Shown piece by piece: positions 28,069-41,373 of a DNA stretch of 46,886 nt. The position numbers were made by a program, and so were the translations under genes. Numbering within the stretch: the first letter of the stretch is position 1; each line of letters begins with the position of its first letter. The notes beneath the pieces are model-generated. The model was given only the letters and a program-made list of their open reading frames with translations. It did not search any database and had not been told where the DNA came from. This DNA is from a virus. The DNA lies in the IMG/VR virus record IMGVR_UViG_3300046505_000018, positions 1 through 46,886 of that record; one strand, 5' to 3'.

Positions 28069-28272
28069 TCAGGGGGCGACCTGGGCACCAGACGCGGGGT
28101 TGGCTAACGCCTTACGTGCGTCGTCCAGACTCTTCGAGGAATCATCCAAGGCCGCGGTGTACTGGGAGGGCAGATTCCGGTCGGGAAACTGGGCCTCCAG
28201 AGAGGCAACCACCTTGGCGGCTTCGTTCTCGTCTGCTACTTCCAGGTCCAGTATGATTCTGACGGAGGGCAT
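28069..28272 (-). CDS. Small hypothetical virion-type protein
   Basis: A 67-residue protein starting MPSVRIILDLEVADENEAAK with a beta strand then helix, ending in an alanine-rich tail (DARKALANPASGAQVAP). Encoded between two structural-type genes in the same direction. No family recognised. Confidence 0.55.
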   Translation of the reverse strand: MPSVRIILDLEVADENEAAKVVASLEAQFPDRNLPSQYTAALDDSSKSLDDARKALANPASGAQVAP

Positions 28273-28289
28273 AGTTGGTCTCCAGATGG

Positions 28290-28670: not shown

Positions 28671-28706
28671 GTAGTGTCTCCTAAGGAGTTCAACTTCGAC
28701 TCACCC

Positions 28707-28735
28707 ATTATCCCGGAACCAGGAAGAAGGTGCAA
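28707..28735 (-). promoter_or_regulatory. Late-arm promoter (TTGCAC-17-GATAAT)
   Basis: Read on the minus strand: -35 TTGCAC (plus 28730-28735), 17-bp spacer, -10 GATAAT (plus 28707-28712, 5 of 6 consensus). It points into the whole structural block and lies beside the 31-bp direct repeats, which could bind a regulator. Confidence 0.65.
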
Positions 28736-28740
28736 CCACT

Positions 28741-28878
28741 AAAAGAATATTCGGATTCATATTTCCGTCCGCGTGTGGGGCCAGGACGAAAAGAATGTTC
28801 GGAAATGAATTTCATAAGCGTGTGATGGCCGCGAGCGTTTATTAATGTTCGGAAATGAATTTCATAAGCGTGTGGTCC
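28741..28878. repeat. Three direct repeats at about 50-bp spacing in the divergent control region
   Basis: A 31-bp unit at 28794-28824 is repeated perfectly at 28844-28874 (period exactly 50 bp). A diverged third copy begins at 28741, sharing AAAAGAAT, TTCGGA and the GCGTGTG end. Each perfect copy contains the dyad GAAATGAATTTC. No gene is supported here. Likely regulator or initiator binding sites between the two arms. Confidence 0.8.
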
Positions 28879-29052
28879 CTAATCAACTTCCCCGATCACG
28901 CATTCGAGATTCGGCATGTGCCACCGGGGGGTCTCAACCCTGACGCCTATCCTCTTAGTGTGCCATTGTCAAGAACTATTTTATTTTTCCCCTTGCATTT
29001 GCTTGCCTGTGTTGTATTGTTCCATTGGCAATTACGCCATAGGAGTAAAGCA
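28879..29052. other. Non-coding stretch between repeats and first plus gene
   Basis: AT-richer than the flanks, with no supported gene. A frame is open from ATG 28855 inside the third repeat, continuous with the gene at 29053, but it lacks a good ribosome site. No confident promoter was found, although one must exist here for the plus arm. Confidence 0.5.
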
Positions 29053-29208
29053 ATGAGATACGGGATACACCAAAGCGAGAATCACTGGTATTGGATGTTT
29101 GACGATACGTGGTCAAATATCCTGGCATGGTGCCTAGAATTGTGCCTCATAGGGGCGTTTATTTGCCACGGCCTAGTTGTTGCCCACTATCTTGGCTGGA
29201 TTAACTAG
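29053..29208 (+). CDS. Small membrane protein
   Basis: A 51-residue protein preceded by AGGAGTAAAGCA, a strong ribosome site. It is aromatic-rich at the N-terminus (HWYWMFDDTWSNILAW) with one membrane span (CLELCLIGAFICHGLVVAHYLG). The frame is open upstream to ATG 28855, which would add 66 residues including another hydrophobic segment; I prefer 29053 because of the ribosome site. Confidence 0.5.
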   Translation: MRYGIHQSENHWYWMFDDTWSNILAWCLELCLIGAFICHGLVVAHYLGWIN

Positions 29209-29228
29209 CCCTTATTAGGAGTAAAGCA

Positions 29229-29282
29229 ATGGACCAGTGGCTAACTGGGTATTGGGTTATGCTTCCCTTGTCAGGAGAATGA
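29229..29282 (+). CDS. 17-residue peptide
   Basis: ATG 29229 is preceded by AGGAGTAAAGCA, identical to the ribosome site before 29053. The peptide is MDQWLTGYWVMLPLSGE. The end of the frame contains the AGGAG of the next tiny frame. Could be a leader or coupling peptide rather than a functional protein. Confidence 0.4.
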   Translation: MDQWLTGYWVMLPLSGE

Positions 29283-29283
29283 A

Positions 29284-29340
29284 ATGCTAACATTGTGTGC
29301 CTTGTGTCTTTGGCTCCTTTTGAGAGGATCAGAACAATGA
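29284..29340 (+). CDS. 18-residue hydrophobic peptide
   Basis: ATG 29284 lies eight bases after AGGAG of the previous frame. The peptide MLTLCALCLWLLLRGSEQ is a short membrane-type helix. Its stop overlaps the next ATG as ATGA, so it may serve translational coupling to 29337-29663. Confidence 0.4.
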   Translation: MLTLCALCLWLLLRGSEQ

Positions 29341-29663
29341 ATATCAGGCTAATTATCCCGAATTGCAATCGTAACGTATCTCCCCTTGTCGCCTATAGGA
29401 AGAGAATCGCCGACATTGCGGGCGGATTCACCGCATGGCAAGCCACTGGCGGATGGATCGGCGGGAATGGTCTATGCGTCGAATTGGTTACTGTGTTCGA
29501 TTGCAGCGTAGCGGTATACTACGGCCAGTCGCGTAGAACATGCCTGAACGTGCCAAAGCCAATTCAACTGTTCCGTCAACTTGCCGCCGACATCGCCCGC
29601 GACCTGAATCAGGACTGTGTGTACCTGAGCATCGACGGCGTGGTCGAATACGTCAAGCGATAG
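29337..29663 (+). CDS. Hypothetical protein
   Basis: A 108-residue mixed alpha/beta protein. It starts MNIRLIIPNCNRNVSPLVAY and has a conserved-looking glycine- and tryptophan-rich core (GGFTAWQATGGWIGGNG) before VELVTVFDCSVAVYYG. GAGGATC upstream serves as ribosome site and a very strong terminator follows 20 bases after the stop. Not recognised. Confidence 0.6.
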   Translation: MNIRLIIPNCNRNVSPLVAYRKRIADIAGGFTAWQATGGWIGGNGLCVELVTVFDCSVAVYYGQSRRTCLNVPKPIQLFRQLAADIARDLNQDCVYLSIDGVVEYVKR

Positions 29664-29683
29664 GGATCGGGATCGGTCGAATG

Positions 29684-29715
29684 GAAGGCTGGCCTTTGGG
29701 CTGGCCTTCTTTTTT
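29684..29715 (+). terminator. Strong Rho-independent terminator
   Basis: GAAGGCTGGCC and GGCTGGCCTTC pair over 11 bp (two G-T wobbles) with a TTTG loop, followed by a run of six T. It ends the short first plus transcript (29053-29663) and isolates the AT-rich island beyond. Confidence 0.9.
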
Positions 29716-29796
29716 GTCTACTCGGATTCGCGGCGTCGATTTTGTGGCGTCGCGGGCGGTGTGCCAGTCAACACGGGGGGCAAGGATTCAAATGAC

Positions 29797-29828
29797 CATT
29801 TCAAACAAGCATTTGAAATGATTGTTTG
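29797..29828. repeat. Nested inverted repeats
   Basis: CATTTCAAA (29797-29805) and TTTGAAATG (29812-29820) are perfect 9-bp arms around CAAGCA. An overlapping pair CAAACAA (29802-29808) and TTGTTTG (29822-29828) permits an alternative fold. No T-run follows. Confidence 0.65.
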
Positions 29829-29970
29829 CTGTCGGGCACTAATTAGGTTAGAAGATTGTATTTTTGGTGTTTTTTCTAACATTTTTCTAACCTTTTTGGC
29901 TATATGGCCTTGCGGTCCATACGCTTGCGGCGTTAAAACCCAAAGTTAGACGATACTCTAACTTACTAGC

Positions 29971-29996
29971 GTGTGTGTGTGTGTGTGTGTGTGTGT
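29971..29996. repeat. (GT)13 dinucleotide run
   Basis: Thirteen GT units directly after the GTTAGA/TCTAAC pair and before an alternating pyrimidine/TA-rich segment. Such runs can adopt Z-DNA or slip; it may be length-variable. Confidence 0.9.
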
Positions 29997-30120
29997 TCTC
30001 TCTATATAGTTATTCTCTCTGTACTGTCTTAAGCTAGAACCAGTCTACTCTGTCTATATACTCTAATGGTATAGGGTTCAAAGACTTAGGAATTAAATGT
30101 TAGAAGGCTAGAAAATATCC

Positions 30121-30149
30121 TTGACATTTCTAACCTGTCATGGTACCGT
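30121..30149 (+). promoter_or_regulatory. Plus-arm promoter with embedded TCTAAC boxes
   Basis: Perfect -35 TTGACA (30121-30126), 17-bp spacer and a weaker -10 TACCGT (30144-30149). One TCTAAC is in the spacer and another begins at the last base of the -10, so a protein bound there would block the promoter. AGGAGA and ATG 30168 follow. Confidence 0.6.
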
Positions 30150-30167
30150 CTAACACAGGAGAAACAT

Positions 30168-30407
30168 ATGAAAAACTGCCCAAAATGTGAGAAGTGGTAT
30201 GAACTGGAGGAATACGGCACACAGACCTATTGCCGTACATGCTGGCGGGAATATGACGCAAGAAAGCGGAGAGAGAAAACTACCCGCCGCAAAGGAGACA
30301 CAGGAAGAAGGCAGTTAGAAGATAGCATAGCCTACATGCTGGAACAATACGGCCAGGACGCGGCCGATAAACTCCGGGCGAAGCTGGAAGCGGAGGGCCG
30401 TCTATGA
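30168..30407 (+). CDS. Small zinc-ribbon protein, first gene after the island
   Basis: A 79-residue protein: MKNCPKCEKWYELEEYGTQ with CPKC, then YCRTCWREYDARKRREKTTR giving the second cysteine pair (about residues 22 and 25), and a helical C-terminus. Four cysteines and a basic helix suggest a nucleic-acid-binding early protein, perhaps a regulator. Strong AGGAGA site seven to eight bases upstream. No exact family named. Confidence 0.65.
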   Translation: MKNCPKCEKWYELEEYGTQTYCRTCWREYDARKRREKTTRRKGDTGRRQLEDSIAYMLEQYGQDAADKLRAKLEAEGRL

Positions 30408-30577
30408 GACCCTGTGCTTGCATAGCCTGTGCCAAACCCATTCCGGCCGATGATGACGCCCGATGGTTGAAGTATTGCACCCCCTGTTGGAAAGTCTTTG
30501 CCCTATCCTGCCCTGTGTCGGCACAAAGATACTTCCGGGCCAAAAGGAAATTGGCCAAGGAGAAGGGCATATTGTAG
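30404..30577 (+). CDS. Small cysteine-rich protein
   Basis: A 57-residue protein in ATGA overlap with the zinc ribbon. CACIACAKP and YCTPCW supply four or more cysteines in two knuckles, and the C-terminus is basic (AQRYFRAKRKLAKEKGIL). Likely a second zinc-binding protein of the same operon. It ends 20 bases before the next ribosome site. Confidence 0.6.
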   Translation: MRPCACIACAKPIPADDDARWLKYCTPCWKVFALSCPVSAQRYFRAKRKLAKEKGIL

Positions 30578-30597
30578 GCTTTCACTGGAGGTGTGAC

Positions 30598-30657
30598 GTG
30601 GAAGAATATCGAAAATTGTTCTGGTTTTGTGTGGCCGCGTTCCTGATGATGATGTAG
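30598..30657 (+). CDS. 19-residue membrane peptide (GTG start)
   Basis: GTG 30598 is seven bases after GGAGG (30586-30590). The peptide MEEYRKLFWFCVAAFLMMM has a charged head and a hydrophobic tail. The good spacing to the ribosome site is the only support; a leader peptide is possible. Confidence 0.4.
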   Translation: MEEYRKLFWFCVAAFLMMM

Positions 30658-30677
30658 ACTTCTTTTGGAGGTGTAAT

Positions 30678-30863
30678 ATGGATGCTGTCAGTTTCATCAT
30701 GGCCTATGAACAAGGCGACTGTTCTAAGGAAGAAGTGATCGAAGGCTTTCAAGCCCTGATTGATAGCGGCCTTTGTTGGCAGCTACAGGGCAGTTACGGC
30801 CGCATGGCTACCCGTCTGATAGAGGCGGGCTACTGCCATGCCGCCAAGGTGGAGGGGGAGTAA
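30678..30863 (+). CDS. Widespread small phage protein
   Basis: A 61-residue protein (MDAVSFIMAYEQGDCSKEEV, ending in a segment with QLQGSYGRMATRLIEAG). This pattern of an IMAYE start followed by E(E/V)IIEGFQxLIDSG and LQGSYGR is common in many phages, recognised from memory, and has no established function. TTTGGAGG precedes the ATG. TAATG overlap with the next gene. Confidence 0.75.
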   Translation: MDAVSFIMAYEQGDCSKEEVIEGFQALIDSGLCWQLQGSYGRMATRLIEAGYCHAAKVEGE

Positions 30864-31240
30864 TGGCCTATATCTATTGTGCCAACTTGTGGTGCGACTC
30901 TTGCGGCAAGGCTATCATGGCTGACCTGGAAAAGGAGTTTACGCCAGAACAGTTGCAAGGCCGCCAGCAGTCAGGAGACTCCGATGACTGGCCGCAACAC
31001 TGTGGCGATCTTGGAGAATCTGATTCTCCTTCCCACTGTGGAGCAAATGAAGAATGTTTAGAGGCAGAAGTACTGCCCAGCGGCCGGAAGATAGGCTCCC
31101 TTCTTTCCACCGACCTGACTTACTATGGGGCCGATTATGTGGCTGATGCAATCAAAGAAGGCGGTGAGGTGGCGGAGTTCTGGCGGAAAGCCTTCTCAGA
31201 CTATCCCCAAGTTGCCGCCCAAGTGGAGGAAAAGACATGA
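30863..31240 (+). CDS. Hypothetical protein with N-terminal cysteine pair
   Basis: A 125-residue protein beginning MAYIYCANLWCDSCGKAIM, then an acidic serine-rich middle (SGDSDDWPQHCGDLGESDSP) and a C-terminal helix (VADAIKEGGEVAEFWRKAFS). Similar phage proteins carry CANLYCEDC-type starts and may bind zinc. Overlaps both neighbours (TAATG and ATGA). Confidence 0.6.
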   Translation: MAYIYCANLWCDSCGKAIMADLEKEFTPEQLQGRQQSGDSDDWPQHCGDLGESDSPSHCGANEECLEAEVLPSGRKIGSLLSTDLTYYGADYVADAIKEGGEVAEFWRKAFSDYPQVAAQVEEKT

Positions 31241-31419
31241 GGTTTCATCATCAAAGTGGCGACCCTTGGGGACGTGGATCGTATACTATCCCCGAATACG
31301 CCGTAGTCGGATCGTCCGATTGCGGCACCGCCCCGAGGCCCTGGGGATGGACTCCGAAGATAATTTCGGAAATTAGTTGCCTGGATCGGATTCATGGTGT
31401 ATGCTCCCTTTGTGCCTGA
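31237..31419 (+). CDS. Small hypothetical protein
   Basis: A 60-residue frame in ATGA overlap with the previous gene, rich in tryptophan, proline and cysteine (RFHHQSGDPWGRGSYTIPEY; ends DRIHGVCSLCA). The overlap supports reality; no family. A promoter-like sequence lies within its last third. Confidence 0.5.
   Translation: MRFHHQSGDPWGRGSYTIPEYAVVGSSDCGTAPRPWGWTPKIISEISCLDRIHGVCSLCA
31377..31405 (+). promoter_or_regulatory. Weak promoter candidate (TTGCCT-17-TATGCT)
   Basis: TTGCCT (31377-31382), 17-bp spacer, TATGCT (31400-31405). Its spacer shares the 12-mer CGGATTCATGGT with a similar site at 39602-39629. It would drive 31451-31588 and the following genes. Confidence 0.3.
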
Positions 31420-31450
31420 GACGTTTAAACCTTTTCCTGGAGGATCGGCA

Positions 31451-31588
31451 ATGAAGAAGTGGTCAAAGGATCGGTACGCGAAGGAACTGGCGGCGGTCAA
31501 GGCTAATGGCAAGTACGGGCTCAATCTGCCCAATCCGCACCCCAAGGGCGAACTGCTCAGGGGCGGCAAGCTGATCGACGCCCGGTAG
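31451..31588 (+). CDS. Small basic hypothetical protein
   Basis: A 45-residue protein with CTGGAGGATCGGCA as ribosome site. It is basic and short (MKKWSKDRYAKELAAVKANG, ends LRGGKLIDAR). A tRNA-like element begins six bases after the stop. No family. Confidence 0.5.
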   Translation: MKKWSKDRYAKELAAVKANGKYGLNLPNPHPKGELLRGGKLIDAR

Positions 31589-31593
31589 TACCT

Positions 31594-31663
31594 GGGCCTG
31601 GGAAGGCGGTTTTACTCCTTTACCGCCCGGCCCTAATCGCGGGTCCGACTCCCGTGAGGCCCT
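31594..31663 (+). tRNA. tRNA-like element (degenerate)
   Basis: GGGCCT (31594-31599) pairs with AGGCCC (31657-31662). A T-arm GCGGG-TCCGACT-CCCGT precedes the 3' strand. In between, AAGG/CCTT could be a D-stem, but a GGCGGT/ACCGCC hairpin competes with it and no normal anticodon arm can be drawn. About 70 bases, no encoded CCA. It sits between a stop codon and the TTTGGAG ribosome site of the next gene. Probably not a working tRNA. Confidence 0.4.
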
Positions 31664-31676
31664 TTGGAGATGTAAG

Positions 31677-31862
31677 ATGATTCAAAAGGCAAAGACAAAA
31701 CGTGAAAAGGCTTTGGTCCTGGCGGCAAGGTGTGCCCTGGCCGATCTGGAAAACTATCGGGATACCATCGGGGTTGACGAGAGGTGGCCCGATGACTACC
31801 CGGCTCAGGTGTCCATACGGGAGTTGGAAGCGGCCCTGGCTCTATGGGGAGGTGTCAAATGA
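31677..31862 (+). CDS. Small hypothetical helical protein
   Basis: A 61-residue protein with TTTGGAG seven bases before ATG. Helical and basic at the start (KAKTKREKALVLAARCALAD), acidic later (VDERWPDDYPAQVSIRELEA). Starts 14 bases after the tRNA-like element and overlaps the next gene by ATGA. No family. Confidence 0.55.
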   Translation: MIQKAKTKREKALVLAARCALADLENYRDTIGVDERWPDDYPAQVSIRELEAALALWGGVK

Positions 31863-32080
31863 CCAAGCTACTCAAGAACGTGTGGCGTGAAACCGGCCGC
31901 GTCTATGATCGGGGCCGATCTCTGATCGTGACCCTGGAGCCCGGCGACGTTATCGGCTTCCGGGCCAAAGGGACGCGGAAAACCTGGAAGACAACCTTGT
32001 ACTCCTGCTTTATCATGGCGGTCAAGGCCCGGGTGGAAGCGGACAAGGCGGCGAAGAAGGCCGCCCGGAGGTCGAGATGA
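31859..32080 (+). CDS. Small basic hypothetical protein
   Basis: A 73-residue protein in ATGA overlaps on both sides. A beta-rich first half (RSLIVTLEPGDVIGFRAKGT) and a helical, lysine/alanine-rich C-terminus (ARVEADKAAKKAARRSR). Such phage proteins are common but uncharacterised. Confidence 0.6.
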   Translation: MTKLLKNVWRETGRVYDRGRSLIVTLEPGDVIGFRAKGTRKTWKTTLYSCFIMAVKARVEADKAAKKAARRSR

Positions 32081-32301
32081 TCGGTGGACACAGAACAAAC
32101 GAGGTCGATACACTGGCCCGGCGTCTCTCGGATGCAGAGTCGTTCGCCCGAGATGCCTTCCAGAACATGATCTCGGACGCCAGCTTCTCGAACGCTGGCA
32201 CCTTTACCGCGTCGATGTGTACCTGGAGAAACGCCCACAACAAGGCTGCCGCCATAGCCGAGGAGTTAGCCCGGCTCAAGAACAGGATGGTCCCCGTATG
32301 A
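32077..32301 (+). CDS. Small hypothetical helical protein
   Basis: A 74-residue, largely helical protein (LARRLSDAESFARDAFQNMI, NAHNKAAAIAEELARLKNRM). ATGA overlaps with both neighbours indicate co-translation. No domain recognised. Confidence 0.6.
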   Translation: MIGGHRTNEVDTLARRLSDAESFARDAFQNMISDASFSNAGTFTASMCTWRNAHNKAAAIAEELARLKNRMVPV

Positions 32302-32651
32302 TGACCGCCAAAGACTTTGCCAAGTACGCCAAGGCCCTGCCCTCGCCGTTGAAGCCGCTGCCCCGTTACCTCTCCGAGGATGTGATCTTCCGCGTGTGGC
32401 GAGGCTCCACCGGCGGCGTGATTGCCCTGTGGCCCGCCGAGCATGACGGCTTCCAGCGTCGTAATATGTGCCGGTCGTTCGAGCATTTCGGCCAGCATGG
32501 TGCGGCCAACTATGGGGTCGTGATGGCCCGGACGCGGCCCGCCAAAGGAGCAGAACACCATGCCCTGCTGGCGGAACTGCGGCAGAGAGGCTACAGCCCC
32601 AACGTGATCCAGCGGGACACCGCTGCTCATCGGCGGCTACGCAATGGCTAA
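32298..32651 (+). CDS. Hypothetical protein
   Basis: A 117-residue protein starting MMTAKDFAKYAKALPSPLKP. The middle has a compact beta-type segment (VIFRVWRGSTGGVIALWPAE), and histidines and arginines increase toward the end. The pattern suggests a small folded cytoplasmic protein; family unknown. It overlaps the next gene by eight bases. Confidence 0.55.
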   Translation: MMTAKDFAKYAKALPSPLKPLPRYLSEDVIFRVWRGSTGGVIALWPAEHDGFQRRNMCRSFEHFGQHGAANYGVVMARTRPAKGAEHHALLAELRQRGYSPNVIQRDTAAHRRLRNG

Positions 32652-33225
32652 GGCCCTGCCCAAGTACGCCACGAGAGAGGAATGGCTGGTCGCCCTGGTC
32701 GAGGCCCTGCGGCCGATGTTCGCCGACCACGGCTACGAGATACCGGGCTGCCCGATCTCGTGCGGCTGGCCGTCGAGGAGCGTCCGCAAGGCCCTGGGCC
32801 AGTGTTTCTCCTCAGGATCGTCCGAGGACGGCACCAGGGCGATCTTCGTCTCCCCCAAGATGGGGAAGGCGGACGAGGTTGCTGGCGTGGTGGTCCATGA
32901 GGTTCTCCATGCCTGCCTGCCTGACGGCACCGGCCACAAGGCCCCGTTCAAAAAGGGCATGAAGGCCCTGGGCCTGGAGGGCAAGGCGACGGCGACCGAG
33001 GTCGGCGAGGAGTTGCAAGAGCGTTTAAACACTATCTGTTCGGACCTGGGGGAGTACCCTCATGCCGCCCTGTCGCTGGCCGATGGGCAGAAACGCCAAG
33101 GAACCCGTATGCTCAAGATGAACTGCCCCGGCTGCGGCTACGTGCTGCGGACGACGGCCAAGTGGATCGACCTGGGCCTGCCGACGTGTGTCTGCGGGTC
33201 CGAATTTGAACTGGAGGAGAAGTGA
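32644..33225 (+). CDS. SprT-like metalloprotease-type protein with C-terminal zinc ribbon
   Basis: A 193-residue protein. VVVHEVLHACLPDGTGHKAP contains HExxH (about residues 89-93) plus a later histidine that can complete the zinc site, as in SprT-like proteins. A C-terminal ribbon with CPGCGY (about residues 160-165) and CVCGSEFEL near the end supplies four cysteines. SprT-family proteins act on DNA-associated proteins, so a role in protecting or remodelling host or phage nucleoprotein is possible. It precedes small genes and is not in the replication block proper. Confidence 0.75.
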   Translation: MAKALPKYATREEWLVALVEALRPMFADHGYEIPGCPISCGWPSRSVRKALGQCFSSGSSEDGTRAIFVSPKMGKADEVAGVVVHEVLHACLPDGTGHKAPFKKGMKALGLEGKATATEVGEELQERLNTICSDLGEYPHAALSLADGQKRQGTRMLKMNCPGCGYVLRTTAKWIDLGLPTCVCGSEFELEEK

Positions 33226-33416
33226 TGACCCGGAAAGACTACGTTCTGATCGCCAACTGTCTGCGGATCACCCTGAATCGGGCAACGGTCGTAACAGATG
33301 GAGAATCGGCTCACGCCATTCGAGGTGTGATTGATGATCTGGCCGTCGAGTTGCAACGGAACAACCCCCAATTCAATCGGGGAAAGTTCCTGGCGGCCTG
33401 CCGAGGTGAGGAATAA
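33225..33416 (+). CDS. Conserved small phage protein
   Basis: A 63-residue protein (MTRKDYVLIANCLR, then VIDDLAVELQRNNPQFNRGK). The MTRKDYxxIA(N/R) start and the N(P)xFxxxxFLxAC end are common to a large family of small phage proteins of unknown function, recognised from memory. TGATG overlap with the preceding gene; GGAGGAG upstream. Confidence 0.7.
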   Translation: MTRKDYVLIANCLRITLNRATVVTDGESAHAIRGVIDDLAVELQRNNPQFNRGKFLAACRGEE

Positions 33417-33556
33417 TGTACCCCGAACCAAATATGGCGAGGTTTATCCTGAAAGAGTTTGATCTGCCTCTTTGGGAGAAGTGTTTCTGGTGGATAAAGG
33501 CGGGGATCGTTGATCTGTTGGATATGGTATATCTCCGTTGGAGTAATAAGCTATGA
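33416..33556 (+). CDS. Small hypothetical protein
   Basis: A 46-residue protein beginning at the TAATG overlap and ending in ATGA overlap. Rich in tryptophan and hydrophobic residues (LPLWEKCFWWIKAGIVDLLD), possibly membrane-peripheral. The couplings on both sides are the chief evidence. Confidence 0.5.
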   Translation: MYPEPNMARFILKEFDLPLWEKCFWWIKAGIVDLLDMVYLRWSNKL

Positions 33557-33777
33557 ATACTCCCCCCAAGATTACCGGCCCCAAGCCGAGCGGCAAGAAG
33601 TACCTCCGCGTGGAGGCCCGCAACATCGGCGACGTGGAAGACTTCATCGACGACCTCCGGGAGGCCCTCCAGTCGGCCAAGCAGGACGGAGGCACCCGCA
33701 GTGCCTTTCTCCACTTACCCGGCGGCGTGAATGTTTTGCAAGTGGAAGTAACGTGCCATTTAGGAGCGAAGAAATGA
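33553..33777 (+). CDS. Small hypothetical protein
   Basis: A 74-residue mixed alpha/beta protein with a basic proline-rich start (PPKITGPKPSGKKYLRVEAR), a helix (DVEDFIDDLREALQSAKQDG) and terminal strands. ATGA overlaps on both sides. No family. Confidence 0.55.
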   Translation: MNTPPKITGPKPSGKKYLRVEARNIGDVEDFIDDLREALQSAKQDGGTRSAFLHLPGGVNVLQVEVTCHLGAKK

Positions 33778-34070
33778 GCGAGAAGCTGCCCTGGTTATGG
33801 TTGGAGACGGACGGCAACCCGGACGGCCAGCCCGAGATGATCGGGAAGGCTGCCTGCGGCTGCAAGCTCTATCGGTTCTATAATGGCTCCGGCGACCCCG
33901 CCTTCGAGATGTGCCCGATGCACAAGGCCGCCCCAGAGATGCTCAAGGCCCTGCGGGAGATGTCGTTTGACAATCCCGAGGTGCCCAACAACCCCCAGGC
34001 CCAGGTGTGCATTTGCCTGACGGCCCGGCTCTGGAGAAAGATTCGTAAGATCGTCAAGAAGGCCTCTTGA
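33774..34070 (+). CDS. Small hypothetical protein, last gene before a promoter
   Basis: A 98-residue protein with several cysteines (ACGCKLY, EMCPMHKAAPEMLKALREM), resembling phage proteins of the type HxAAPExLEALKxL, which are common and uncharacterised. The C-terminus is basic (RLWRKIRKIVKKAS). Its stop codon lies inside the -35 box of the next promoter. Confidence 0.6.
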   Translation: MSEKLPWLWLETDGNPDGQPEMIGKAACGCKLYRFYNGSGDPAFEMCPMHKAAPEMLKALREMSFDNPEVPNNPQAQVCICLTARLWRKIRKIVKKAS

Positions 34071-34094
34071 CAATCTCTGGCCCCGTGGTACAAT
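34067..34094 (+). promoter_or_regulatory. Strong sigma-70 promoter (TTGACA-16-TACAAT)
   Basis: Perfect -35 (34067-34072) and TACAAT -10 (34089-34094) with a 16-bp spacer. It drives the tRNA-like element and the genes from 34212. The same three-part pattern recurs at 38340. Confidence 0.8.
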
Positions 34095-34123
34095 CGGGGC
34101 CAGAATCCTAGGCAACGCCTAGG
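34077..34123. promoter_or_regulatory. Two palindromes over the promoter and leader
   Basis: CTGGCCCCG and CGGGGCCAG (34077-34103) are perfect 9-bp arms with the -10 TACAAT in the loop. CCTAGGC and GCCTAGG (34107-34123) follow around AAC. The first looks like an operator or a terminator for upstream reading; the second would be in the transcript just before the tRNA-like element. Confidence 0.6.
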
Positions 34124-34127
34124 CGGA

Positions 34128-34199
34128 AGGGCGATAGTTCAACTGGCAGAACCTTGGCATAGTAGCCGAGAAGTGTGGGTTCGACTCCCACTCGCCCAA
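34128..34199 (+). tRNA. tRNA-like gene with abnormal anticodon arm
   Basis: GGGCGA (34129-34134) pairs with TCGCCC (34192-34197); position 1:72 would be an A:A mismatch. TA, then D-stem GTTC/GAAC with loop AACTGGCA, and T-arm GTGGG-TTCGACT-CCCAC are all canonical. The anticodon arm is CTTGGC/GCCGAG around ATAGTA: a six-base loop (or eight with a five-bp stem), so no anticodon can be assigned; AGT is one reading. No CCA is encoded. A strong promoter precedes it and a ribosome site follows at once. Confidence 0.65.
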
Positions 34200-34211
34200 G
34201 TGGAGGTTCAA

Positions 34212-34457
34212 ATGAAGCTGAACGGATATCTGATTATGGCCCGATGCACCGTTTACGACATACCGATGGGCTTCTTCGCCGACAAGGGCGAGGCCCGCAA
34301 GTTTGGCACCGGGATCAAGCCCGGTATGGTTGGCGTCGAGGCCGACGCTATCGGATATGAGCGTTCGACTCCGCTGACTATCGATCTCATTCCATTCGTG
34401 GACCAGATTCCGGGCAAGCACACCATCCTCCGGTATTTTGACCAGGAGGATTGCTGA
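34212..34457 (+). CDS. Small hypothetical protein
   Basis: An 81-residue beta-rich protein (LNGYLIMARCTVYDIPMGFF, GERSTPLTIDLIPFVDQ-like C-terminal half). TGGAGG lies immediately after the tRNA-like element, so its ribosome site would be next to that structure in the transcript. TGATG overlap with the next gene. No family. Confidence 0.55.
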   Translation: MKLNGYLIMARCTVYDIPMGFFADKGEARKFGTGIKPGMVGVEADAIGYERSTPLTIDLIPFVDQIPGKHTILRYFDQEDC

Positions 34458-34663
34458 TGGGTGCGGCGTGGGCGAAGGCGAAGGCCGAGGAGGCGAACTT
34501 CTGGCTGGCCGCCCAGGCTGCTTGGCATGTGGCTGCGGTAGCCGAGGCCGAGGCCCGTAGGCTGGAGGCCCTGGCCCACGAAGCCGCCGCCCGAGCCTGC
34601 CAAGCACGGGCCGACGAAGTACGATCCCGTATCCCCACACACCGTGAAAGAGGGACAGAATAA
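34457..34663 (+). CDS. Alanine-rich helical protein
   Basis: A 68-residue protein, more than one third alanine, forming one long charged helix (KAKAEEANFWLAAQAAWHVA, EAEARRLEALAHEAAARACQ). Probably coiled-coil. Overlaps both neighbours (TGATG, TAATG). Function unknown; low complexity leaves some doubt about conservation. Confidence 0.5.
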   Translation: MGAAWAKAKAEEANFWLAAQAAWHVAAVAEAEARRLEALAHEAAARACQARADEVRSRIPTHRERGTE

Positions 34664-35088
34664 TGGCGAATGCACCCCGTCTTCCCGGCCCCGATAGGGC
34701 ACCCCCGACACCCGAGGCCCCGAAGGACATGCACTACAAGGAGCGGCTGATCCTCCTGGCCGCTGCGATGGCACAGCAGACCTCATCGAACCTGGACCGA
34801 CAGAAGTTCCTGGCCTTAATGGACTACATCCAGTCCACCAAACCTCTGCCAGAGTTCCGGGCCGATGGGAGGTCGAGGCAACCCAATCGCACGGCGATAA
34901 TCTACTCCTGGATGCTCTGGATCATCGCCCAGGTCCGAGGTGGAGTTCTGCCTGAGGCGGCCTCGACAGTCAACAAGGCCCTGGCCCTGGCCGAGAAGGC
35001 CGCCGCCTGCTACCTGCCTGGCGTGGATTTCGAGATCGTCGGCTCGGTAGCTGCGGGCTGGACCCTGGAGGTCAAGTCATGCGGATAG
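34663..35088 (+). CDS. Hypothetical protein
   Basis: A 141-residue protein: proline-rich start (APRLPGPDRAPPTPEAPKD), then helices (ERLILLAAAMAQQTSSNLDR, FLALMDYIQSTKPLPEF) and a C-terminal alanine-rich part. GAGGG upstream and TAATG overlap. It overlaps the next (secreted) protein gene by 10 bases. No family recognised. Confidence 0.55.
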   Translation: MANAPRLPGPDRAPPTPEAPKDMHYKERLILLAAAMAQQTSSNLDRQKFLALMDYIQSTKPLPEFRADGRSRQPNRTAIIYSWMLWIIAQVRGGVLPEAASTVNKALALAEKAAACYLPGVDFEIVGSVAAGWTLEVKSCG

Positions 35089-35684
35089 TCACTCTCCTAG
35101 CCCTCCTGGTCTTGTCGAGCCTGGCCTCTGCCGCGATGTGGTGTCCTGTGATTGACTACACGGGGAACTCCTTCTATCTTTCGGAGTCTCTCAATCAGTC
35201 GATGACCGCCCCGGACGCGGCGATGCAAATCGCTACGTTGAATGCCATTACTGGCTATTCCGATCTCTACTTCATGCCGACCTATGCCCAGTTACAGGCG
35301 GGGGAGGCTGAGGACGGCCTGCCCATCTTTGATTCCCAGTGGTGGCAAGAGACGATGGGGAACTCGGGCACGGCCTATTGGCGACTCGGGATGAGAGCCT
35401 TAGCCATGCCCCACGACGGTGATGCCAATAACGACGGCAGAGTGGACGTGGTAGACCTAGGAATCCTCGCCAAAAACTACGACGGCTTCGGGAAAAGCTG
35501 GGGCGAGGGGGACTTCACCGTGGGAGGCCTCGTTGACGTGGTGGACCTGGGCATTCTTGCCAAGAACTACGATTGGGTGGGCACACCGCCGAGTGATGTG
35601 ATGCTACCCGAGCCGTGCGTGTTTGGGCTTATGCTCGGCCTTCTGGTCCTGGGTCACAAGAGAGGCCGGGCCACCAGTATATGA
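35079..35684 (+). CDS. Secreted dockerin-type protein with PEP-CTERM sorting signal
   Basis: A 201-residue protein. Residues 1-19 are a signal peptide (RIVTLLALLVLSSLASAA). Residues 20-110 are an unrecognised exported domain rich in aromatics. Residues 113-166 hold two dockerin-type repeats: GDANNDGRVDVVDLGILAKN has intact calcium ligands D115, N117, D119 and D126; the second (DFTVGGLVDVVDLGILAKNY) has lost most ligands. A PEP motif (177-179), hydrophobic helix and basic HKRGR tail form a PEP-CTERM signal for exosortase processing. The architecture is a planctomycete-style cell-surface protein. Role in the phage unknown. Confidence 0.8.
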   Translation: MRIVTLLALLVLSSLASAAMWCPVIDYTGNSFYLSESLNQSMTAPDAAMQIATLNAITGYSDLYFMPTYAQLQAGEAEDGLPIFDSQWWQETMGNSGTAYWRLGMRALAMPHDGDANNDGRVDVVDLGILAKNYDGFGKSWGEGDFTVGGLVDVVDLGILAKNYDWVGTPPSDVMLPEPCVFGLMLGLLVLGHKRGRATSI

Positions 35685-36232
35685 AATTGCCACCGCCCGT
35701 CATCACCCCGGCTGTACCCTCCCCGGCCACCTCCACCGGGACAGCCAACGACGGGCGGTGGCCTAATTCTAAGAAATGTTCTCGCTGTAAGCGTACCCTC
35801 CCGTTGGGAAACTTCTGCAAGAACAAATCTACGCCGACGGGTCTATCATGGAACTGCCGAGAGTGTAAGGCTGACTATTCGGATCAGCCGGGGGCAAAAC
35901 AGAGCCGTAGGGACTACTGGATAAAACACAGGGCTGTGGCTGCCGAGAGATGCCGAGACTACAATCTACGACACAACTACGGAACTAACCTCGTAGAAGT
36001 GGCGTCCATGTTCAACAAACAGAGCGGTCTATGTGCAATATGCGGGGCCACCCTCGTTCTCCCTGGGCCTTCCACTAAGAAAAAACCAACAACGGCACAT
36101 GTAGACCACGACCACAGGACGGGCAATATTCGAGGGCTGCTGTGCCATTACTGCAATCTCGGGCTTGGTCACTTCAAAGACTCAGCGGAGATCATGCGAG
36201 CGGCGATCCTCTATGTAGGGGGTAGGATATGA
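35681..36232 (+). CDS. Recombination endonuclease VII-like protein
   Basis: A 183-residue protein. CSRCKRTL followed by WNCRECKADY forms an N-terminal zinc ribbon (about residues 33-66). The C-terminus has CAICGATL and the nuclease core AHVDHDHRTGNIRGLLCHYC, followed by NLGLGHFKD, the endonuclease VII / HNH signature with catalytic aspartate and histidines. Such enzymes resolve branched DNA before packaging. ATGA overlap with the dockerin gene. Confidence 0.85.
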   Translation: MKLPPPVITPAVPSPATSTGTANDGRWPNSKKCSRCKRTLPLGNFCKNKSTPTGLSWNCRECKADYSDQPGAKQSRRDYWIKHRAVAAERCRDYNLRHNYGTNLVEVASMFNKQSGLCAICGATLVLPGPSTKKKPTTAHVDHDHRTGNIRGLLCHYCNLGLGHFKDSAEIMRAAILYVGGRI

Positions 36233-38220
36233 TGCCGCCGCCTCCGATACCGGACCCACGGGTGAGCGATGACCGCTGGGTACATATGCTCAAGAAAGCA
36301 GGTTGGCCCACCACGGTGGTCGTGGTTGATTTTGAGTGTTACTTCTCTAAGACCTATCGAATGTTGAAAAAAGGCGGGACGGGGCTACCGACAATCTGTT
36401 ATGTCATGGACCCCAGGTTCGAGTCCCTGGGCGTCGGCACTGTCGAGATGGACGGCAAGCTGCCGTTCTCCCCCCGTCAGTCGGTCTTCTGGCACGATGC
36501 TCGGGAGCAGTTCGAGTACCTCCAGGGCCGGTATGGGGAGAACCTGGAGGGGTGCGTCGTCGCCGGCTGGAACCTTCGGTTTGACGGCACCGTCCTGGCC
36601 CGCAAGCACGGGATCGTCCCCCGCTACGCCATCGACATCATGGCCCTGTCTCAACGCCTGGACGCCAGAGCGAAGCACAACCTCCGGGATGTCTGCGAAC
36701 GGCATGGTCTGCCGCCCAAGGGCGACACGATGGAGTTTGAGGGCCTTCATTGGGCCGATATGGACGAGGAGAAGCGGAAGAACCTTGCCATCTACTGCAA
36801 CAATGACGTGGAGCGGGAAGCCGATCTGCTGGTCATGCTCCTACCCGAGTTGGATAGGCCCGAGGTGGAGCTACCCCTGATCTGGCACACTCAACGGCTG
36901 TTCTGGGAACCCGACCTGGATTTCGACGCGGCCGAGGCCGACCGGTTGATCGGGCTGATGGGAGCCCAGGTCGCTGTGGACTGCGGCGAGTGGACCCCGA
37001 AAGAGATCGGCGGCGTGGCCTCGTTCAGCCGCCTGCTCGGTGAGGCCCTGGCCGAGACGGGCGAGAGCATCGCCATGAAACAGGGCAAGAAGAAAATGAT
37101 CGTCGCCCTGGCGAAGGATGACGAAGCCCTCAAGGCCTACCGCGTCCATTCGAACCCCCGCGTTCGAGCCCTCATCAAGGCCCGGACGGCGGTCAAGTCC
37201 TGGCCGCTGCACATCGGACGGCTGGTGTCGATGTCGAAGCAGGCCAAGGCCTCGGGCGGCCGGCTCTGCAACCCTATAAAGTACAATGGAGCCCATACGG
37301 GCCGATGGACAGGGGGGGAGGGCATAAATACGTACAATTTGCCCACCCGTGGCACCGGGCTCCAGGTCGAGATGAAGCACTGTCTGCGGGCTCCCGAGGG
37401 CCACATCCTCGTAATGGGGGACGCCGCCCAGATCGAAGCCCGAGGGACGGCATGGCTGGCCGGGCAGACCGATCTCATCGAAGCGTTTACACGAGACGAA
37501 GATGTCTATTCCCAGTTCGCCGCCGAGGTATTGGCAGCTCCGTGCCGGAAGCCCCGCAAGAGCGACCCGCCTCCGGTGGCGAAGCTCTACGGAGCCCGCA
37601 GGGCCATCGGCAAAGTCGGCATCCTTGGCATGGGCTACAACATGGGGCCGGATCGTTGCATGGAGTATATGCAGACCTACCCCGAACTAGAGCCCAAAGT
37701 CGCCTCGGGCGAGATCGACTTCCTATTCTGCAAGAACTTGGTGGATGCCTATCGCTCGAAGTATTACATGATCCCTCGATTCTGGAGGTCGCTGGAAGAT
37801 GTTTTTAGATTCACTACTCGTTATGGCACACCTCAAACCGTGCGGGGCCTGGGTCTGTCCCGTGATGGGTCCACTACGGTCGTCACTCTGCCCTCTGGCC
37901 GGCGTCTGTTCTATCCCCACGCCGCCGTCGATGTCGGTGGAGACCTCCGATACCACTGGGGAAAGCTCTACGGCGGCATCCTGACCGAGAACATCGTTCA
38001 GGCCATGAGCCGGGACGTGTTGGTCGAGGCCCTGCTGTTCGTCGAGGAGCGAGGGTTCCGGGTGGCTCACCACGTCTATGACTCACTGGTGGTGGTTGCC
38101 AAGGAGACCGAGGATACCCTCGCCTATTCGTGCGTGACTGAGGCGTTGAAGCAAGTGCCGGCCTGGGCTACGGGCTGGCCGATGGGAGCCGAGGTGACAC
38201 TCGGGAAGCGGTATGATTAA
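36229..38220 (+). CDS. DNA polymerase I-like (family A) replicative polymerase
   Basis: A 663-residue protein. The N-terminal 3'-5' exonuclease has VVVDFECYF (D34, E36), NLRFDG (D119) and YCNNDVE (Y189, D193). The polymerase part has NPIKYNGAHTGRWTGGEGIN (349-368), motif A DAAQIEAR (398-405), motif B RRAIGKVGILGMGYNMG (457-473) and motif C HHVYDSL (614-620), with D398 and D618 as metal ligands. The usual HDE of motif C is YDS here, a known phage variation. It would copy the phage genome. ATGA overlap upstream. Confidence 0.9.
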   Translation: MMPPPPIPDPRVSDDRWVHMLKKAGWPTTVVVVDFECYFSKTYRMLKKGGTGLPTICYVMDPRFESLGVGTVEMDGKLPFSPRQSVFWHDAREQFEYLQGRYGENLEGCVVAGWNLRFDGTVLARKHGIVPRYAIDIMALSQRLDARAKHNLRDVCERHGLPPKGDTMEFEGLHWADMDEEKRKNLAIYCNNDVEREADLLVMLLPELDRPEVELPLIWHTQRLFWEPDLDFDAAEADRLIGLMGAQVAVDCGEWTPKEIGGVASFSRLLGEALAETGESIAMKQGKKKMIVALAKDDEALKAYRVHSNPRVRALIKARTAVKSWPLHIGRLVSMSKQAKASGGRLCNPIKYNGAHTGRWTGGEGINTYNLPTRGTGLQVEMKHCLRAPEGHILVMGDAAQIEARGTAWLAGQTDLIEAFTRDEDVYSQFAAEVLAAPCRKPRKSDPPPVAKLYGARRAIGKVGILGMGYNMGPDRCMEYMQTYPELEPKVASGEIDFLFCKNLVDAYRSKYYMIPRFWRSLEDVFRFTTRYGTPQTVRGLGLSRDGSTTVVTLPSGRRLFYPHAAVDVGGDLRYHWGKLYGGILTENIVQAMSRDVLVEALLFVEERGFRVAHHVYDSLVVVAKETEDTLAYSCVTEALKQVPAWATGWPMGAEVTLGKRYD

Positions 38221-38413
38221 TGCAAGTGGAAGATCACTCTGGTCGTCCTGTCGTTCGTGCCGGAAGTCTTTTGACGTGACGCTGGAGATTCTCCGAAGGG
38301 AGTCTATCCCGGAATTTTGTCCCGAATGTGGATTGATCGTTGACAAGAAGACGGGCTCTGCTACAATGATCCACGCCGTCAACGTGATCGGCCTATTTAC
38401 TTGGAGGAACTGA
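38213..38413 (+). CDS. Small zinc-ribbon protein
   Basis: A 66-residue protein with CRSCRKSFDV (about residues 13-16) and FCPECGLIV (about 36-39), a four-cysteine zinc ribbon. It overlaps the polymerase gene by eight bases. A strong promoter lies within its second half. Function unknown. Confidence 0.65.
   Translation: MINASGRSLWSSCRSCRKSFDVTLEILRRESIPEFCPECGLIVDKKTGSATMIHAVNVIGLFTWRN
38340..38367 (+). promoter_or_regulatory. Strong sigma-70 promoter (TTGACA-16-TACAAT)
   Basis: TTGACA (38340-38345), 16-bp spacer, TACAAT (38362-38367), identical in boxes and spacing to the promoter at 34067. It lies inside the zinc-ribbon gene and drives 38413 onward. Confidence 0.75.
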
Positions 38414-38691
38414 TGACCGTCATTGAACAAGAAGAACTCTTTGTCTCCCTCAAGAACTCCCATCCGGCCTGGACCGACAAGTTCTGCTCGGGCTATGTGG
38501 CTGGCGTTGTGGACGAGGCCACCCAGTCAAAGCCGAAGGCGGAACTCGCCCGGCGTCGGACGGAACTCGACCACTACGCCCTGGGCTACCTGACCGGCTT
38601 CGCCATGCACCGGGGCCAGGACGCGGAGACAGAGCCCTGGTTCGGCTTCGTGGGCAACCTCGTGAAGGGCCTCAAAGATGCCGAGTCATAG
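38413..38691 (+). CDS. Hypothetical protein
   Basis: A 92-residue protein. ATG 38413 is chosen because TTGGAGG (38401-38407) is six bases upstream and the ATG overlaps the previous TGA. Mostly helical (VGNLVKGLKDAES at the end) with two similar segments, SGYVAGVVDEA and LGYLTGFAMHR, which may be an internal repeat. No family recognised. Confidence 0.6.
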   Translation: MTVIEQEELFVSLKNSHPAWTDKFCSGYVAGVVDEATQSKPKAELARRRTELDHYALGYLTGFAMHRGQDAETEPWFGFVGNLVKGLKDAES

Positions 38692-38926
38692 GCTGACAAA
38701 GCGGGAGCGGGTCCAGGTGATCGCCGCCCTGCGGTATTTTGGGCGGGCTGCTGAGTGCATCGCCCGACCGGGAGGGCATCCGGCCGATCACCCTATGGTC
38801 GTGGATCGCTTCAAGCAGGCCGATGTCCTGCCGATGACCCTGGACGAACTGGAGACGCTGATCGGCCGGCTGGATGGGTCGCTGCCCACGGGCCGCCGCC
38901 CCTGGAACCCACACAAATGGCTATGA
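38678..38926 (+). CDS. Small hypothetical protein
   Basis: An 82-residue protein, helical and charged (RLTKRERVQVIAALRYFGRA, LPMTLDELETLIGRLDGSLP). It overlaps the previous gene by 14 bases and the next by ATGA. Possibly DNA-associated given its basic start; no family. Confidence 0.55.
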   Translation: MPSHRLTKRERVQVIAALRYFGRAAECIARPGGHPADHPMVVDRFKQADVLPMTLDELETLIGRLDGSLPTGRRPWNPHKWL

Positions 38927-39129
38927 GACCTAACCGGCTTCGGCAAGCGATGATCGACCAGAAGGCCGCCGCCCGTGTGGGTGGCCGGTACTACGCCGCC
39001 ATCCAGGGTGGCAAGGCCTTCCGTGCCGGCATCCTGGCCGATGAATGTCCCTATGACGACAGCCGAAAAGCTGCGTGGATGGTCGGCTGGAACGCCGCCC
39101 AGGATCGGAGAAATGATGAAACACCCTGA
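38923..39129 (+). CDS. Ribosome modulation factor / CrpP-like small protein
   Basis: A 68-residue protein. The C-terminal half shows the RMF-type pattern: GGKAFRAGILADECPYDDSR then KAAWMVGWNAAQDRR (G..A...G.....CPY......W..GW..A). RMF dimerises ribosomes in stationary cells, and CrpP-like relatives occur on mobile elements. The phage copy could alter host translation, but the short motif could also belong to an unrelated phage family. ATGA overlap upstream. Confidence 0.55.
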   Translation: MRPNRLRQAMIDQKAAARVGGRYYAAIQGGKAFRAGILADECPYDDSRKAAWMVGWNAAQDRRNDETP

Positions 39130-39259
39130 GAACGTGAAGCCAATCTGGTTGATCGGACTGATACTCATGGCGTCCTTCGCCCCTAGCCCATGGGGTGGGT
39201 TCTCCGTAGGTGTGGCCCTGGTAGTCACCGCGATCTTCGACACAGGGGAGACCAAGTGA
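39113..39259 (+). CDS. Small membrane protein
   Basis: A 48-residue protein with a hydrophobic body (VKPIWLIGLILMASFAPSPW, GGFSVGVALVVTAIFDTGE) that could span the membrane once or twice. It overlaps the previous gene by 17 bases and the following gene by GTGA. Function unknown. Confidence 0.5.
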   Translation: MMKHPENVKPIWLIGLILMASFAPSPWGGFSVGVALVVTAIFDTGETK

Positions 39260-39609
39260 GGCTCTCTGAGGTGTTCCCCGACAAGCCCCGCCGCCCTCGG
39301 GGCAAGCCCGAGAAGCAGGTCCAGAAGGAGATCGGCGTGTGGTTGGCCCAGAAGGGTATTCCCTTCGCCGTCACCGACGCGGGCGTCCTGTACGGCGTGT
39401 CGGCCGGCATCCCTCGGGGCTGGCCGGACATCACCGCCTGCTGGCCCGGCGGTCGGTTCGTGGGGATCGAGTGCAAGGCAGCAAAGGGCCGGCAGTCTGA
39501 GGATCAGGCGGTGTACCAGCGTGACATCCAGGCCCAAGGTGGCCGATACGTGCTGGCCCACTCGTTCGCAGAATTTCTTTCAGAATGTTCGAGATTGGGG
39601 CTTGCGTAA
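39256..39609 (+). CDS. VRR-NUC domain nuclease (GTG start)
   Basis: A 117-residue protein. EKQVQKEIGVWLAQKGIPFA, then GIPRGWPDITACWPGG with the catalytic aspartate, FVGIECKAAKGRQSEDQAVY with the ExK pair and an invariant glutamine, and GGRYVLAHSFAEF form a complete VRR-NUC PD-(D/E)xK fold. Such stand-alone domains cleave branched or flap DNA in phages. GTG 39256 overlaps the previous TGA. Confidence 0.85.
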   Translation: MRLSEVFPDKPRRPRGKPEKQVQKEIGVWLAQKGIPFAVTDAGVLYGVSAGIPRGWPDITACWPGGRFVGIECKAAKGRQSEDQAVYQRDIQAQGGRYVLAHSFAEFLSECSRLGLA

Positions 39610-39629
39610 ATTCGGATTCATGGTAGAGT
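39602..39629 (+). promoter_or_regulatory. Weak promoter candidate (TTGCGT-16-TAGAGT)
   Basis: TTGCGT (39602-39607), 16-bp spacer containing CGGATTCATGG, TAGAGT (39624-39629). It lies at the end of the VRR-NUC gene in the 40-base gap before the next gene and is similar to the candidate at 31377. Confidence 0.35.
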
Positions 39630-39649
39630 AGGACCATTGGAGGTTTGAG

Positions 39650-40831
39650 ATGACTGTTGAAGTGAAACACGTATCCGCGTCGTCGATTGCCAGCTTCAAA
39701 CGGTGCCCAATAGCGTACAAGATCGCGTATGTCGATATGCTGCGGCAGGCCGAGGAAGCGGCTCCCCTACGGATCGGTACGAACTGGCACATGGGCGTCG
39801 AGATTCTGGAGGCAGGCGGCACGGTCGAGGAGGCCATCGCTGCCGCGACCGAGGGTTACAACACGATCCCTGATGGCGTTGACCCGACTGACTGGGCCGT
39901 CGAGCGTGAGGTGATCGCCAACGCCATAGCGGCCTACGCCTGGCGGTACGGCGAGGCCCAGGACTTCGAGACCGTGGCGAACGAGCTTGAGTTCGAGCTT
40001 CCCCTGGTCAACCCCGAGACGGGTCACTCGACCCCGAACTTCGTGCGGGTAGGCCGGATCGACCGGATCGTCCGATCCCGCCTGACAGGTGCCCTGCTGG
40101 TGCGTGAGGATAAGAGTACCTCTCGACCCATCGACTCGGGATCGACCTACTGGAACCGCCTGCGGAAGGATACCCAGTCGAAGTTCTACATCCTGGCAGC
40201 CCGTTATCTCCAGAATAGTAGAAATCTCAGGTTCGGCAAGAACGAGGAGGATTGGAACGCCTATCCGACGATCTCCGGCCTCCTCCACTGTGTCTTCCGC
40301 AAGCCCTCGATCAGCCCCAAGAAGCTGACACAGGCTGAGTCGGCAAAGTTCGTGGAGACCGGCGAGTATTGCGGGCAGAAGTTCGTGGTCAAGTGCATAT
40401 TTGACTGGCGGGATATGTGCATAGATGAAGTTAGGGCCGAGGTCGAGATTGGCAAGAAACCGGGCACCTTCGCCCTCCGGGAGACCCCGGCGATGTACGG
40501 GGCACGGCTGTTCGAGGACATGACCACGACCGACGACGACCATCACGGGCCGGACTGGTACTTCGCCCGCAAGGAGGTCGCCTTCACCGACGCCGAGATG
40601 ACGGACTTCGCCTATCAGGTCTGGAACATCCAGAAGACGATGGCCGAGATGACCCGCACCGGCCGGTTCTACGAGAACGAGTCCCAGTGTGAGCCGACCG
40701 GCGGCTTCAAGTGTCCCTACTGCCCGATCTGTTTCAATAACGTGGACCTCTCCACCGGCCTCGTCCCTCCAGGGTTTAAACGCCTGGAGCGGAAGGTCGC
40801 GGAAGAAACCACAACGGAGGTAGGCGAATGA
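39650..40831 (+). CDS. RecB/Cas4-like PD-(D/E)xK nuclease
   Basis: A 393-residue protein. VSASSIASFKRCPIAYKIAY is the typical N-terminal motif with the first cysteine, LRIGTNWHMGVEIL follows, RVGRIDRIVR gives the catalytic aspartate and LLVREDKST the E-x-K pair. DTQSKFYILAARYL supplies the conserved glutamine/tyrosine motif. FKCPYCPICFNN near the C-terminus adds cysteines that, with the N-terminal one, could hold an iron-sulfur cluster. In phages such nucleases work with annealing or recombination ATPases, here the Sak4-like gene two genes on. Confidence 0.85.
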   Translation: MTVEVKHVSASSIASFKRCPIAYKIAYVDMLRQAEEAAPLRIGTNWHMGVEILEAGGTVEEAIAAATEGYNTIPDGVDPTDWAVEREVIANAIAAYAWRYGEAQDFETVANELEFELPLVNPETGHSTPNFVRVGRIDRIVRSRLTGALLVREDKSTSRPIDSGSTYWNRLRKDTQSKFYILAARYLQNSRNLRFGKNEEDWNAYPTISGLLHCVFRKPSISPKKLTQAESAKFVETGEYCGQKFVVKCIFDWRDMCIDEVRAEVEIGKKPGTFALRETPAMYGARLFEDMTTTDDDHHGPDWYFARKEVAFTDAEMTDFAYQVWNIQKTMAEMTRTGRFYENESQCEPTGGFKCPYCPICFNNVDLSTGLVPPGFKRLERKVAEETTTEVGE

Positions 40832-41373
40832 AGTACGTAAGCATCGACATCGAGACGACAGGATTGGACTGGATGCGTTGCCAGGTTCTCCAGGTGGCCT
40901 GCGTCATTGACGACACGGATCACCCCGAGATTCCGGTGGACGATCTTCCATCGTGGTGCAACTACGTGCAGCACGACGAACTACGTGGAGACCCGATGGC
41001 CCTAGCCATGAACCGGAATCGTCTGGAGGCTATCGCCAAGGGTGCGGGACTTCCTCCGACGCACATCTATCCGGCTATCAGCGGATGGCTGGAGCGTCAC
41101 GGACTCGGGACGAGGGGGGTTACAGCCGCCGGCAAGAACTTCTCCGGGTTCGACCGGATATTCTTGAATCGTATGGACGATCAGTTCGTTTGCCTGTTCC
41201 ACCATCGCTCTATCGACCCGACAGTGTGGTTCTGGGAGAAGGACGATCTGGTACTTCCTAGTATGTCAGAGTGTTGTAAGAGGGCCGGCATCCCCTATGA
41301 GGGGACACACGATGCCCTGGACGACGCGAGACTCGTAATCCAACTGGTACGCAAAGGAATGGAGAAACCATAA
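40828..41373 (+). CDS. DnaQ-like 3'-5' exonuclease
   Basis: A 181-residue protein. The DEDD exonuclease motifs are IDIETTGLDW (D7, E9), AAGKNFSGFDRIFL (middle aspartate) and GTHDALDDARLVI (histidine and last aspartate, DEDDh type). Such proteins trim DNA or RNA 3' ends. It is separate from the exonuclease domain of the polymerase. ATGA overlap upstream and TAATG downstream. Confidence 0.85.
   Translation: MKYVSIDIETTGLDWMRCQVLQVACVIDDTDHPEIPVDDLPSWCNYVQHDELRGDPMALAMNRNRLEAIAKGAGLPPTHIYPAISGWLERHGLGTRGVTAAGKNFSGFDRIFLNRMDDQFVCLFHHRSIDPTVWFWEKDDLVLPSMSECCKRAGIPYEGTHDALDDARLVIQLVRKGMEKP

Follow-up and report, generated by a model that had tools for sequence, protein, structure and literature searches.

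Exosortase-dependent sorting is widespread among environmental Gram-negative bacteria, and little is known of its physiological roles. Phages also place proteins at the surface of the cells that they infect, and Llp of phage T5 is a surface protein of this kind that serves superinfection exclusion. Ltp of phage TP-J34 is likewise surface-exposed and acts in superinfection exclusion (PMC3952083). The exosortase EpsH has been proposed to process PEP-CTERM proteins and sort them to the surface or the outside (PMC1569441), and planctomycete cohesin and dockerin modules have been proposed to build non-cellulosomal surface complexes (PMC6461901). Searching the open-access literature by title and abstract, we found no description of a phage-encoded PEP-CTERM or dockerin protein, nor, in the literature searched, of exosortase-based anchoring of a phage exclusion protein. 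Here we analyse g48 (35079–35684, plus strand), a phage gene that encodes a PEP-CTERM/dockerin-like protein of 201 amino acids predicted to be exported.

The window, by which we mean the whole stretch of DNA analysed, comprises a 46,886-base virus record. Its two ends (1–135 and 46752–46886) form a direct repeat of 135 bases with one mismatch, which is either a genome end or an overlap from circular assembly. The window encodes a portal protein, large terminase, family A DNA polymerase, primase, Sak4-like annealing protein, exonuclease and RNA ligase, together with a weak major-head match, and therefore belongs to a tailed phage. The window genes searched included no integrase. A tRNA-like gene at 34128–34199 (43 bits, Rfam) has an abnormal anticodon loop and could not be assigned an amino acid by ARAGORN, while a second tRNA-family match at 44008–44123 is weak (29.2 bits) and contains a long insert. 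The product of 3682–4626, a probable membrane protein or lipoprotein, has a strong hydrophobic segment followed by a lipobox-like LCSGC, as well as a second membrane segment; it is common to two relatives at ~43%.

The g48 frame, delimited by ORF calling and the module HMM described below, opens with a predicted signal peptide, MRIVTLLALLVLSSLASA (residues 1–18; 35079–35132; this and all following parts of the gene lie on the plus strand). Hydropathy and inspection reveal a basic n-region, an h-region spanning residues 3–17 (Kyte–Doolittle mean of 2.41 over 15 residues) and a predicted cleavage region, A-S-A-A, of the A-x-A type; the signal region ends in ASAAMWC and, by inspection, lacks a lipobox. 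Residues 19–111 (35133–35411) form an orphan N-terminal domain for which searches found no relative. Calcium loop 1, DANNDGRVDVVD (residues 115–126; 35421–35456), supported by the module HMM and an AlphaFold model, is canonical and matches the pattern D-x-N-x-D-G-x-V-x-x-x-D. Calcium loop 2, DFTVGGLVDVVD (residues 145–156; 35511–35546; module HMM), retains D1, G6, V8 and D12 but no longer has ligand residues at positions 3 and 5. The PEP-CTERM-type sorting signal, located by HMM and hydropathy (35607–35681), comprises PEP at residues 177–179, the hydrophobic helix CVFGLMLGLLVLG and a basic HKRGR tail at the extreme end. An earlier note on this DNA had listed a signal peptide, one calcium-type loop, a second degenerate copy and a PEP motif with helix and basic tail; sequence and hydropathy bear out this anatomy, and the missing ligands confirm that loop 2 was correctly called degenerate.

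We then compared the tail with a profile of 30 planctomycete dockerin-pair and PEP-CTERM tails from which g48 was left out. The profile aligns to g48 in a single stretch starting at loop 1 and ending in the basic tail (residues 115–197) at 95.6 bits (E = 1.5e-28), a very large margin over the controls even for a profile somewhat biased towards g48, its tails having been retrieved with g48 as the query. The best of 2000 shuffled sequences reached 8.7 bits and the best other ORF of the window 8.5 bits; since no shuffle exceeded 8.7 bits, the tail is not a chance resemblance. Public models gave a different picture, with Pfam Dockerin_1 scoring 10.1 bits on g48 against a cut-off of 22.9 and the curated PEP-CTERM models PF07589 and TIGR02595 returning no match. 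The positive controls, three host proteins whose dockerin and PEP-CTERM tail is beyond doubt, scored 19.3, 16.4 and 33.7 bits with Dockerin_1 (same cut-off) and 19.9 bits, no match and 19.6 bits with PF07589 (cut-off 20.7), and TIGR02595 was barely passed by two and did not match the third. Because genuine host tails also fall at or below the cut-offs, the negative result for g48 is weak and non-decisive evidence; the comparison with public models that the earlier note had proposed is formally negative without settling the matter. The tail of g48 is almost certainly the planctomycete dockerin/PEP-CTERM module, and both its identity and its origin are well supported.

Structure prediction agrees with the dockerin assignment. 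An AlphaFold model of the repeat pair, built with nine sequences, has a pLDDT of 86.3 and a pTM of 0.73, and dockerins account for 20 of the 21 PDB matches in a structure search with it. The best match is 2y3n_B (TM 0.72/0.81, probability 1.00, E 1.3e-3). The predicted fold is a duplicated calcium loop plus helix in which the second loop is degenerate. Thus the dockerin repeats claimed from the letters hold for fold and loops, but not at the Pfam Dockerin_1 cut-off. A model of the whole protein from its single sequence reached a pLDDT of only 39 and was set aside.

The tail points to Planctomycetota of the Pirellulales. Among genome contigs, the closest match to the g48 repeats is a locus of a Pirellulales metagenome-assembled genome (MAG) at 56%. 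A search of the whole genome of this MAG (G022) with the g48 protein returned 69 matches, nearly all confined to the tail (best 8.2e-20), and the matching proteins that were read out end in PEP, a helix and a basic tail. G022, the nearest MAG and not necessarily the host, encodes two exosortases (PF09721). Tails matching at E ≤ 1e-12 occur in only 4 of 392 genomes drawn from the phylum, and the g48 module is at most ~64% identical to known host copies. The kinship extends to DNA: positions 35417–35569 (plus strand) are 71% identical to a G022 contig over 156 bp (E 5e-13), and G022 is the sole genome with a DNA match to the gene among 222 of the order. On the same contig, three clustered genes at 12366–16149 carry the same dockerin/PEP-CTERM tail. 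From the tail copies and the DNA match, the donor or host of g48 is probably a relative of G022, not necessarily G022 itself.

Other links to a host were sought over window positions 25001–45000. Apart from the dockerin stretch, the DNA matches to the 222 genomes of the order were limited to a tRNA, GT repeats and short chance-like ones, and no CRISPR spacer matched. The two loci inspected for repeats contained no repeat-spacer array. The phage terminase has only distant matches (~32%) in the 392 planctomycete genomes and so gives no prophage link. Hence the earlier note was right that the protein points to a host, in that the G022 protein and DNA matches indicate a Pirellulales-like host or donor, while the spacer comparison it recommended connected the phage to none of the 222 genomes.

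Several features place g48 firmly in the phage. The gene lies in the replication arm, with the virion genes on the opposite strand. The stop codon of the conserved phage gene upstream, g47 (34729–35088, plus strand), overlaps the g48 start, and a Shine–Dalgarno GGAGG (35066–35070, plus strand) stands just before the g48 ATG within the 3′ end of g47. Downstream, the ATG of an HNH-type endonuclease VII gene (35681–36232, plus strand; PF02945, 3.2e-19) overlaps the g48 stop (ATGA), and its stop is overlapped in turn by the ATG of the DNA polymerase A gene (36229–38220, plus strand). The GC content of g48 (0.586) and its GC3 (0.733) fit the phage means of 0.602 and 0.740. These neighbours, small genes upstream and endonuclease VII downstream, are as described before; the genome around them, with its portal, terminase, DNA polymerase and primase, is genuinely that of a phage, and g48 lies away from the virion-gene arm. 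With its strong Shine–Dalgarno sequence, frames overlapping on both sides, phage-like GC and GC3, and position in a variable slot between conserved phage genes, g48 is a phage gene. An assembly chimera with a planctomycete contig might be suspected, as the module is host-like down to the DNA level and no second contig covering the gene was found. Yet the phage genes on either side are syntenic with those of relatives, the g48 frame overlaps each of them, and similarity to host DNA is limited to 156 bp at 71%, so that we regard a chimera as barely credible.

The presence of g48 is lineage-specific. We recovered ~20 related viral contigs through the terminase and polymerase, several of them fragments, and none has a match to g48. 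The full protein and its repeat part found no relatives in the viral contigs, and 50,697 phage records searched with the whole protein and the host module gave no match; g48 is a single instance. The slot between the g47 homologue and the polymerase holds differing optional content in four relatives: a 79-residue membrane-type protein (L016), an HNH_3/AP2 endonuclease (L018), a coiled-coil-like protein (L031) and nothing clear (L017). Such differences define it as a variable slot.

The L018 endonuclease (9000–10100) copies, in its first 36 residues, the N terminus of a related phage polymerase (L017, 3769–3900). None of 2000 shuffles aligned as well over these 36 columns, and the alignment suggests that a nuclease element inserted at the 5′ end of polA and captured its start. 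The endonuclease VII of the window resembles the polymerase N terminus weakly (36/2000 and 23/2000 shuffles as good).

These observations bear on whether g48 is a recently captured host fragment, free of selected function, that entered the slot before the polymerase with or through the neighbouring nuclease gene. Its absence from all relatives examined, its degenerate loop 2 and its orphan N-terminal domain would fit, as would its position beside an HNH/endonuclease VII gene, in the slot where L018 has an HNH_3/AP2 endonuclease copying a polymerase N terminus. Phage nuclease genes have also been reported at boundaries of genetic exchange (PMC10448857). Against this reading, g48 has a 201-codon intact frame with a strong Shine–Dalgarno sequence and overlaps on both sides, a phage-like GC3, and a preserved PEP and basic tail. 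The identity of at most ~64% to host copies also implies either that capture was not very recent or that the true donor is unsampled. We consider such a fragment unlikely, if well short of negligible.

The remaining half of the protein is of a different character. Residues 19–111 have no relative in the PDB, PHROGs, viral contigs, 392 genomes of the phylum or 119 genomes of the MAG's family. A motif resemblance to Lcl_C/DUF1566 (GYSD..PT..QL) was rejected, as its 7.7 bits were exceeded by 3 of 5000 shuffles and its hhalign score of 15.3 was equalled by about 10 of 200. A Pfam bpX1 match (E 0.0025) falls below the cut-off and partly over the signal peptide, and was taken as chance. The domain is either phage-born or from an unsampled host. 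The suggestion that the phage had captured a host exosortase substrate therefore stands for the planctomycete-type tail and not for the whole gene, whose N-terminal domain is without relatives.

We propose that g48 is an accessory gene (moron) whose C-terminal half derives from a planctomycete exosortase substrate, and whose product would be handled by the host exosortase and displayed on the infected cell. Following the role proposed for PEP-CTERM signals (PMC1569441), the C-terminal helix would retain the protein in the membrane, with cleavage near the PEP and sorting by exosortase to the surface or the outside; display would then be expected. The folded dockerin-like pair could serve as a display stalk or, given the planctomycete cohesin/dockerin surface complexes (PMC6461901), as a docking module. 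The orphan domain would be the working part, most likely blocking a receptor, or the adsorption or entry of competing phages. By analogy, superinfection exclusion or receptor masking is the function with the best precedent for a small phage protein that is exported and encoded outside the virion module, and we put it forward as a hypothesis; the N-terminal domain, having no relative, contributes nothing positive to it. The surface uses suggested in the earlier note, namely receptor masking, superinfection exclusion or attachment, likewise have the standing of an inference. Taken whole, with interference against other phages included, this proposal is tentative, and we place it somewhat short of an even chance. 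Counting against it are the public models that g48 does not pass, the degenerate loop 2, the single instance and the lack of a spacer match.

Two other roles would use the same tail differently. As a decoy substrate, g48 would bind or saturate the exosortase of the host, or else a cohesin-type partner, and block the installation of host surface proteins during infection. The protein is short with a complete sorting signal, and dozens of proteins in this type of host use the pathway, but a decoy would need neither a distinct 93-residue domain nor a folded dockerin pair, and loop 1 and the PEP look more like those of an ordinary substrate than like an inhibitor; we give it only a small chance. 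Alternatively, g48 could be a virion or adsorption component whose dockerin-like pair fastens it to the phage particle or to scaffolds on the host surface. Dockerin-like loop pairs do occur in other viral contigs (L126, L127, L131, L132 and L133), apparently in small conserved families, and all such pairs outside contig L125 lack a PEP-CTERM. Against this role, g48 lies in the replication arm on the strand opposite to the virion genes, and a signal peptide with a C-terminal membrane helix is unexpected in an assembled virion protein, which makes it very improbable.

The accessory gene with an exosortase-sorted product, if correct, would have wider meaning. A phage that supplies its own exosortase substrate would demonstrate the importance of the pathway during infection, and g48, if a true exosortase substrate, would be a small natural one for study. 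Its tail also suggests Pirellulales-like Planctomycetota as the host lineage of an uncultured phage group with no known host. More generally, planctomycete phages may use host-derived dockerin/PEP-CTERM tails to display effectors of their own via exosortase, for superinfection exclusion or surface remodelling, a generalization towards which we incline less than towards the case of g48 itself.

Like Ltp and Llp, g48 is small, phage-encoded and predicted to be exported, a likeness of predicted location rather than of sequence. Unlike these exclusion lipoproteins, it has no lipobox and bears an exosortase-type C-terminal sorting signal in place of a lipid anchor. In IMG/VR, one other contig, L125, carries the same tail, in a 1257-residue protein (4530–8303) with PATR repeats, a dockerin pair and a PEP-CTERM downstream of a phage small-terminase gene. 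The two proteins share their tail architecture, and each is encoded on a contig with phage genes, but the L125 protein is large and host-type and lies at the contig end, so both phage cargo and the host flank of a prophage are possible. Compared with dockerin domains (PF00404; PDB 2y3n type II, CelS), g48 has the same two loop-helix units and canonical loop 1, and its predicted fold superposes with theirs; it differs in a loop 2 that lacks some calcium ligands and in a score below the Pfam cut-off. Planctomycetota exosortase substrates (TIGR02595, PF07589) differ from g48 in that g48 is phage-encoded, falls below the curated HMM cut-offs and is similar to them in the tail only. With these substrates g48 nevertheless shares a signal peptide, a diverse middle and the PEP, helix and basic tail, and in g48 as in the substrates of the Pirellulales MAG G022 the dockerin-like pair stands immediately before the PEP.
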